From NCBI GenBank assembly GCA_030536655.1, contig JAUNPN010000012.1, positions 1 through 39,221 on the forward strand: a DNA stretch of 39,221 nucleotides, given 5' to 3'. A model generated the notes under the pieces. The model was not told the origin of the DNA. It made no database searches and saw only the letters and a list, made by a program, of their open reading frames with translations. Within the stretch, counting starts at the first letter, position 1. The number at the start of each line of letters is the position of its first letter. Both the position numbers and the translations under genes were made by a program. Shown here one piece after another: positions 1,631 to 2,050 of this stretch. Source of the stretch: a bacterium (lineage in GTDB: Bacteria > Bacillota > Clostridia > UBA1381).

Positions 1631-1705
1631 ACCTGAATAGGAAATGATAAGAAGAAGGAAAAAAAACTCACAGAAAACCTGTCACTGATAAAAAGGCAAA
1701 ATTAA

Positions 1706-1738
1706 GATCCTATCTGTATTTAATTTACGGATAAGCTC
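1706..1738. repeat. 33-bp palindromic element: two terminal repeats joined without an interior
   Basis: GATCCTATCTGTATTTAA is followed directly by TTTACGGATAAGCTC, with TAA on both sides (1703-1705 and 1739-1741). The halves match the left and right ends of the 210-bp element at 38593-38802. It lies inside the transcribed folD leader and would fold as a hairpin in the RNA. Confidence 0.65.
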
Positions 1739-1775
1739 TAAATACTGTAATATATAATAAATGAGGAAGAAAGAG

Positions 1776-1882
1776 GTTTGGAAAAAGATAAGCGGCGCAT
1801 CTCGCCGTCATTCGAGGCTTGAAGTACAGCGTACGACTGCGCCCCTCATAACGGCAAACTGCTTGCTTCTCTTTTCCCAAAC
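1776..1882 (+). ncRNA. Structured leader RNA of unknown class upstream of folD
   Basis: Nested complementary segments support a multi-stem fold. The outer stem pairs GTTTGGaAAAAG (1776-1787) with CTTTTcCCAAAC (1871-1882). Inside it, AAGCGG (1790-1795) pairs with CTGCTT (1859-1864), using one G-U; GCCGT (1804-1808) pairs with ACGGC (1851-1855); and GAGG (1814-1817) pairs with CCTC (1844-1847). GTAC-AGC-GTAC (1824-1834) can form an innermost hairpin. The GC content is higher than in the flanks. The position in a long folD leader suggests a regulatory RNA. It does not match the THF or ZTP riboswitch consensus as I remember them. An alternative reading is a folded repeat unit unrelated to folD. 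Confidence 0.55.
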
Positions 1883-1912
1883 GTATTGGTGAAAGGAGTT
1901 CGAATTATAAGT

Positions 1913-1963
1913 TTGAAAGAAATTCTCGTTGCATCTTGCGACTTTTGCCGGGTTCGCATATAA
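1913..1963 (+). CDS. Possible 16-residue leader peptide
   Basis: A TTG codon opens a short frame (KEILVASCDFCRVRI, then TAA). The GGAG at 1895-1898 lies 14 bases upstream of it, the same distance as between GGAG and ATG in folD. The upstream 20 bases (1891-1910) are a near copy of those before folD. Its last codons run into the 5' arm of the hairpin at 1949-1997, as in attenuator leaders. There is no evidence of translation beyond this arrangement. Confidence 0.3.
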   Translation: MKEILVASCDFCRVRI

Positions 1964-1997
1964 ACACATAGTTTCATCCGCCGAAAAATGTGACCCG
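1949..1997 (+). promoter_or_regulatory. Hairpin in folD leader
   Basis: CGGGT (1949-1953) pairs with ACCCG (1993-1997) and CATAT (1957-1961) with ATGTG (1988-1992), separated by a 3-base bulge. It lies between the duplicated ribosome-site blocks. No T-run follows, so it could affect translation or RNA stability rather than act as a terminator. Confidence 0.45.
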
Positions 1998-2050
1998 CTT
2001 AGAGCATTTCTCTCAAACAGCATTGATTGAAAGGAGTTCAGATTATAACA

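Follow-up and report, generated by a model that had tools for sequence, protein, structure and literature searches.

Two tandem copies of a dispersed, hairpin-forming DNA repeat in the folD leader of a Clostridia bacterium of the UBA1381 lineage

The folD locus

The DNA analysed here (the window) is the whole 39,221-nt contig stretch JAUNPN010000012.1 of a Clostridia UBA1381 bacterium (assembly GCA_030536655.1). It encodes folD on the forward strand (positions 2051–2896; Pfam domains THF_DHG_CYH and THF_DHG_CYH_C), behind a long leader for which an initial annotation had proposed a regulatory role. Further upstream, a nucleotidyltransferase gene (NTP_transf_5) is split by a TGA at 658–660 into two open reading frames of the same frame (187–660 and 730–1341, forward strand), and is probably a pseudogene or the result of a sequencing error. 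An inverted repeat with arms of 40 nt (1380–1419 and 1551–1590; 80% complementary, 131 nt between the arms) lies directly 5′ of the promoter and could be another MITE-like repeat.

The sigma-70-like candidate promoter that had been annotated at 1602–1630 (forward strand) was recovered, with TTGATT and TATAAT separated by 17 nt and a TG before the second hexamer. It reached 10 of 12 consensus matches in a consensus scan, which is not functional evidence by itself, and shuffled sequence of such a region yields about three promoter-like sites. The distance to folD is about 400 nt, in agreement with the long gap claimed earlier. The first part of the leader (1637–1775, forward strand) is unique sequence, as most copies of the repeat in this genome match only from about position 1770 on. 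It contains the palindrome at 1706–1738, which exists as annotated and lies outside the repeat, and a native Shine-Dalgarno-like GAGGA (1763–1767, forward strand) just 5′ of the element. The stability of the whole 414-nt leader is ordinary (z = −1.47; 9 of 100 shuffled sequences fold equally well).

Anatomy of the repeat

The remainder of the leader consists of two tandem copies (1776–1910 and 1911–2048) of a dispersed, hairpin-forming DNA repeat of about 110–140 nt. Unit 1 comprises a 108-nt irregular hairpin with helices P1–P4 (1776–1883; listed on the reverse strand, as the complement folds better) and a 27-nt tail (1884–1910, forward strand), which is constant in the copies of the genome, carries the Shine-Dalgarno sequence AAAGGAG at 1892–1898 and ends with ATTATAA. 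The closed multi-stem fold previously described at 1776–1882 is thereby borne out: its nested stems are present, the covariance model matches with E = 2e-27 (a value that is not independent, since unit 1 is itself among the 34 copies from which the model was built), and the stems, for which a covariation analysis had been proposed, covary strongly across genomes. Unit 2 belongs to a diverged subfamily with four long relatives in the same genome. Its hairpin (1911–2018, reverse strand; covariance model E = 3.7e-6) includes the annotated hairpin at 1949–1997, which forms the inside of the tandem unit rather than a separate feature. Its tail (2019–2048, forward strand) is common to copies of the genome, carries AAAGGAG at 2030–2036 and has its ATTATAA end two bases 5′ of the folD ATG. 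The two tails share the direct repeat TGAAAGGAGTTCRNATTATAA (1890–1910 and 2028–2048).

Aligned copies read GTTTGGAAAAAGATAAGC, P2–P4, GCTTCTCTTTTCCCAAAC and then GCATTGGTGAAAGGAGTTCGGATTATAA, and fold into a single long, irregular hairpin of helices P1 to P4, whose internal loops are conserved and behind which the AAAGGAG tail follows; across copies, the tail sequence is GAAAGGAGTTC or ATGGAG. In other genera the sequence of P1 is quite different yet the pairing is kept (AACGTGAAAAATAAGC with GCTTCTTTTCCACGTT; GTCTGAAAAAATGCTC with GAGCATTTTCCCAGAC); the tail there has another sequence as well, but still carries a Shine-Dalgarno sequence. Tandem arrays occur, as do short deletion derivatives that retain only P1 and the tail. 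A pseudoknot pairing the loop sequence GGCGCA with TGCGCC was dropped because its variation is accounted for by helix P3. Four copies (L155 and L158 of genome G010, L170 and L171 of genome G023) carry an extra block inside the element, namely CTCACCGCCAAGAAGGGCGGACGC..GCAAAAGTGATGA just 5′ of the 3′ arm of P1 in three of them and a different block in L171; to judge from these sequences, it looks as if a second small repeat had been inserted into the hairpin.

Copy number and distribution

Searches of the own genome with blastn yielded at least 58 matches to the leader among the matches listed, the query included, the others having 75–97% identity. The 3′ arm of the outer stem P1 had 213 matches with at most three mismatches, compared to none in a reversed control, and the repeat is present in this genome at roughly a hundred or more copies. 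The covariance model detected it in 37 of the 81 nearest relatives, all of which belong to the same family (about 48 genomes), and in none of the 81 outside that family; a class-wide sample of 391 genomes contributed nine more, spread over five other families, and one of the nine is rich in copies. This patchy occurrence at high copy number fits a mobile element. Phages, plasmids and viral contigs contained no match, and carriage by phages, viruses or plasmids was therefore rejected. Many copies in the own genome are located at contig ends (e.g. L091, L112, L202 and L210); short-read assemblies of these species are probably broken up by the repeat, and the copy numbers would then be too low.

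A search against Rfam returned no family at the gathering thresholds, and nothing meaningful and no riboswitch at E values up to 10, which agrees with the earlier statement that the fold belongs to no recognised class. No description of the element was found in the open-licence literature, and it may have been described elsewhere.

Placement between Shine-Dalgarno sequence and start codon

All 38 scorable sites of the related genome G006, from both subfamilies, end at the start of an open reading frame and are oriented in sense, which speaks for a role of more than a short DNA motif. Of the 29 starts that were located for copies of the GTTTG type in G006, 23 lie 2 nt past the end of the element and the others no more than 4 nt past it. 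The own genome has 39 of its 79 scorable sites at the start of an open reading frame, 32 of these at exactly +2. Shine-Dalgarno-like 4-mers were found 5′ of the element at 28 of 31 sites (G006) and 16 of 27 sites (own genome), as opposed to 4 of 31 and 5 of 27 control windows; the energy of pairing with the anti-Shine-Dalgarno sequence was likewise lower than in control windows, and the left flank ends with AA in nearly all copies checked. A typical copy, as represented by about half of the sites in the own genome, is thus located in sense orientation between a native Shine-Dalgarno sequence and the start codon, and supplies an AAAGGAG or ATGGAG of its own. The genes on its 3′ side are unrelated and include those for an FGGY sugar kinase, RibBA, ThiG, NusB, FeoA, a beta-galactosidase and Rrf2.

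In the GTTTG type, 14 nt separate GGAG from ATG (2036 to 2051 for folD). This is wider than the usual optima for Shine-Dalgarno spacing, so that reduced or altered translation is predicted.

The other half of the sites in the own genome lies away from gene starts, and many of these have the right end ATTATAAGTTT, with four extra bases, GTTT, that match the left end of the element. The two kinds of right end may reflect two insertion products. At the two-unit array L089 (right end near 1348), the flanks rejoin as the palindrome CTGCTGTAAGTTAA / ACAGCAG.

Sites without the element were sought by joining the flanks of five copies in genome G009 and searching related genomes with the joined sequences. 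One joined site aligned without gaps to genome G052 over 460 nt (84% identity), with GATAAGAGGTAATAA/AAATGG in the former (the slash marks the junction) and AACGAGAGGAAATAAAAATGG in the latter; for a site of type B, the element-free orthologue reads TTTGAGAGGATAAACGAAGAATG. Judged from these alignments, clean gain or loss of the element took place between the start codon and a Shine-Dalgarno sequence of ordinary appearance, the direction of change being ambiguous, and a possible target duplication amounts to AA at most.

Covariation and strand preference

Among 34 copies from nine genomes, the alignment contains 139 cells with two-sided changes, compared to 50.5 in shuffled alignments and at most 34 when pairing partners were slid. 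Paired positions are complementary in 96.0% of cases on the complement (31 copies) and in 88.9% on the mRNA strand, where the mismatches are mostly A.C, equivalent to G.U on the complement. Unit 1 has fold energies of −37.5 in sense and −53.1 in antisense; the antisense minimum free energy is the lower one in 31 of 34 copies with RNA parameters and in 32 of 34 with DNA parameters. Among 28 independent copies outside the model (from other families of Clostridia, other genera of the same family and the diverged subfamily of the own genome), the antisense strand was more stable in all 28, compared to 23 of 52 control windows. It is thus mainly on the complement of the mRNA that selection appears to maintain the fold. 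The strand preference, which also holds in other families, could in part go back to common descent of the same G.U positions.

The better preservation of the fold on the complement is the main reason against calling the element a sense-strand regulatory RNA, and suggests that the structure serves mobility, as folded single-stranded DNA or antisense RNA, rather than an mRNA leader. On the bottom strand, the edge of the element (2042–2048 and 1904–1910) reads TTATAAT and thus includes a −10-like hexamer without mismatch that points towards the hairpin; the edges of other subfamilies have a merely similar AT-rich sequence.

Relation to known mobile elements

Several enzymes were considered as mobilisers. 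Transposases of the Y1 (HUH; PF01797) and IS110 (PF01548) families are missing from the own genome (98% complete) despite its hundred or more copies, and were rejected, as was an IS110 element with a bridge RNA. A reverse transcriptase (PF00078) is encoded once in the own genome and not at all in the copy-rich genomes G011 and G044; its presence does not track copy number, which led us to reject it as a mobiliser and the element as a retroelement. The integron integrase (TIGR02249) was rejected as well, with none of 49 genomes above the cut-off. Other tyrosine recombinases may be candidates. No parent transposon sharing terminal inverted repeats with the element was found.

MITEs derived from IS200/IS605 and the REP/RAYT systems are small, palindromic, non-coding repeats that are moved in trans on one DNA strand; the genome bearing the present element differs in lacking a Y1 transposase. 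The REP2 repeats of Neisseria likewise bring a ribosome-binding site close to the start codons that they precede, and are not known to have a conserved hairpin on the bottom strand; host and sequence differ from those of the present element, and the resemblance is a lead only.

The BOX, RUP and SPRITE elements of Streptococcus pneumoniae are small (<200 nt), structured, dispersed repeats of about 30–125 copies without a transposase of their own; terminal inverted repeats bound them, their usual location is 3′ of genes, BOX and RUP have target-site duplications, and BOX has a modular build that allows tandem extension (PMC3049150). The present element resembles them in being short, structured, dispersed, non-coding, without a transposase of its own, of high copy number and present or absent at orthologous sites, but differs in its location between Shine-Dalgarno sequence and start codon and in a duplication of AA at most; no relation to them by sequence or in Rfam was found. 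The SAS/ESAS of Cluster K mycobacteriophages comprise a 13-bp sequence, GGGATAGGAGCCC, immediately 5′ of start codons, which in one form adjoins a 17-bp inverted repeat, and for which no insertion is reported (PMC3203893). The location immediately upstream of start codons is shared; however, our element is a covarying hairpin of more than 100 nt that occurs in bacterial chromosomes and has empty sites, and neither form of its tail matches the SAS consensus. The attC sites of integrons are imperfect hairpins with structural rather than sequence conservation, whose folded bottom strand is functional and which form arrays of one orientation (e.g. PMC2727003). The present element resembles them in being conserved by structure more than by sequence, in arrays of one orientation and in the better folding of its bottom strand, but the outer ends of the own-genome type (GTTTG..CAAAC) do not follow the R-box order of attC, and gene cassettes are absent. 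The element thus differs from each of the named mobile-element families tested in what defines that family, and behaves like a small interspersed repeat.

Interpretation

A folD-specific leader regulator, as implied by the initial annotation, for instance a riboswitch that responds to folate, to ZTP or to something related, is in keeping with a structured leader 5′ of a folate gene that matches no Rfam class. It is nevertheless very improbable: the element is present in none of 80 related folD loci, most of which, where displayed, have a plain Shine-Dalgarno sequence close to the ATG, and it precedes many unrelated genes, which refutes specificity for folD. THF and ZTP riboswitches were rejected for want of both a match to an Rfam covariance model and an association with folate or purine genes, and the better conservation of the structure on the strand opposite the folD mRNA again speaks against a regulatory RNA of this gene. 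An intergenic repeat unrelated to folD had been named at the outset as the finding that would contradict this proposal, and the fold is such a repeat.

The element might alternatively constitute a genome-wide translational regulon, a cis-acting RNA that selection has spread to numerous start codons and kept there, where one protein or small RNA would bind all copies and so control the translation of dozens to hundreds of genes. The position of all 38 scorable G006 sites, directly before start codons and with the element's own Shine-Dalgarno sequence, and the strong structural conservation of the hairpin would be explained, but we consider a regulon unlikely in view of the conservation on the opposite strand, the functionally unrelated downstream genes, the half of the own-genome copies that lies away from gene starts, and the arrays and hairpin-only derivatives, which resemble those of a mobile repeat. 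Rather improbable, too, is an antisense RNA gene, whose transcription would begin at the AT-rich edge (TATAAT on the bottom strand of the own genome) and whose product, the folded bottom strand as RNA, would either target the neighbouring mRNA or serve a reverse transcriptase as template during mobility. Variation of the G.U type on the bottom strand is what one expects of RNA, and the −10-like box is suitably placed at the edge of the element; against this, no conserved −35 box is seen (its position is occupied by variable coding sequence), other types of the element do not share the −10-like box, and reverse transcriptases are missing from two copy-rich genomes.

We therefore favour, with a probability of about 0.75, the explanation that the folD leader carries, in tandem, two copies of a mobile repeat that is non-autonomous and hairpin-forming, that is mobilised in trans and whose insertion before start codons is tolerated. 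A recombinase or transposase supplied in trans would act on the folded bottom strand, presumably as single-stranded DNA and less likely as antisense RNA, and the folded strand would be joined after AA, usually two bases 5′ of a start codon. With the ribosome-binding site that comes along in the element, the gene would survive and the insertion be tolerated, and re-insertion at the same point may give rise to the tandem arrays. The expected outcome for folD is a 5′ UTR that is long and structured and in which the Shine-Dalgarno sequence is replaced by one with a wide, 14-nt spacing; translation of folD is probably altered, and ligand sensing is not implied. More tentatively, and with considerable doubt, we suggest that the insertion point, two bases 5′ of the start codon and 3′ of the Shine-Dalgarno sequence, is a matter of targeting and not of selection alone; the antisense-strand hairpin and a putative mobilising enzyme would together direct the element there, and the ribosome-binding site re-supplied in the process would keep the interrupted gene expressed.

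If insertion is aimed at start codons, this would be an unusual choice of target for a bacterial mobile element and would amount to a natural rewriting of translation initiation regions throughout the genome. For these uncultured Clostridia, the repeat provides many natural comparisons, with and without the element, of how structure between Shine-Dalgarno sequence and start codon relates to expression. A structured leader in one of these genomes may turn out to be a repeat, which calls for caution before it is named a gene-specific riboswitch.
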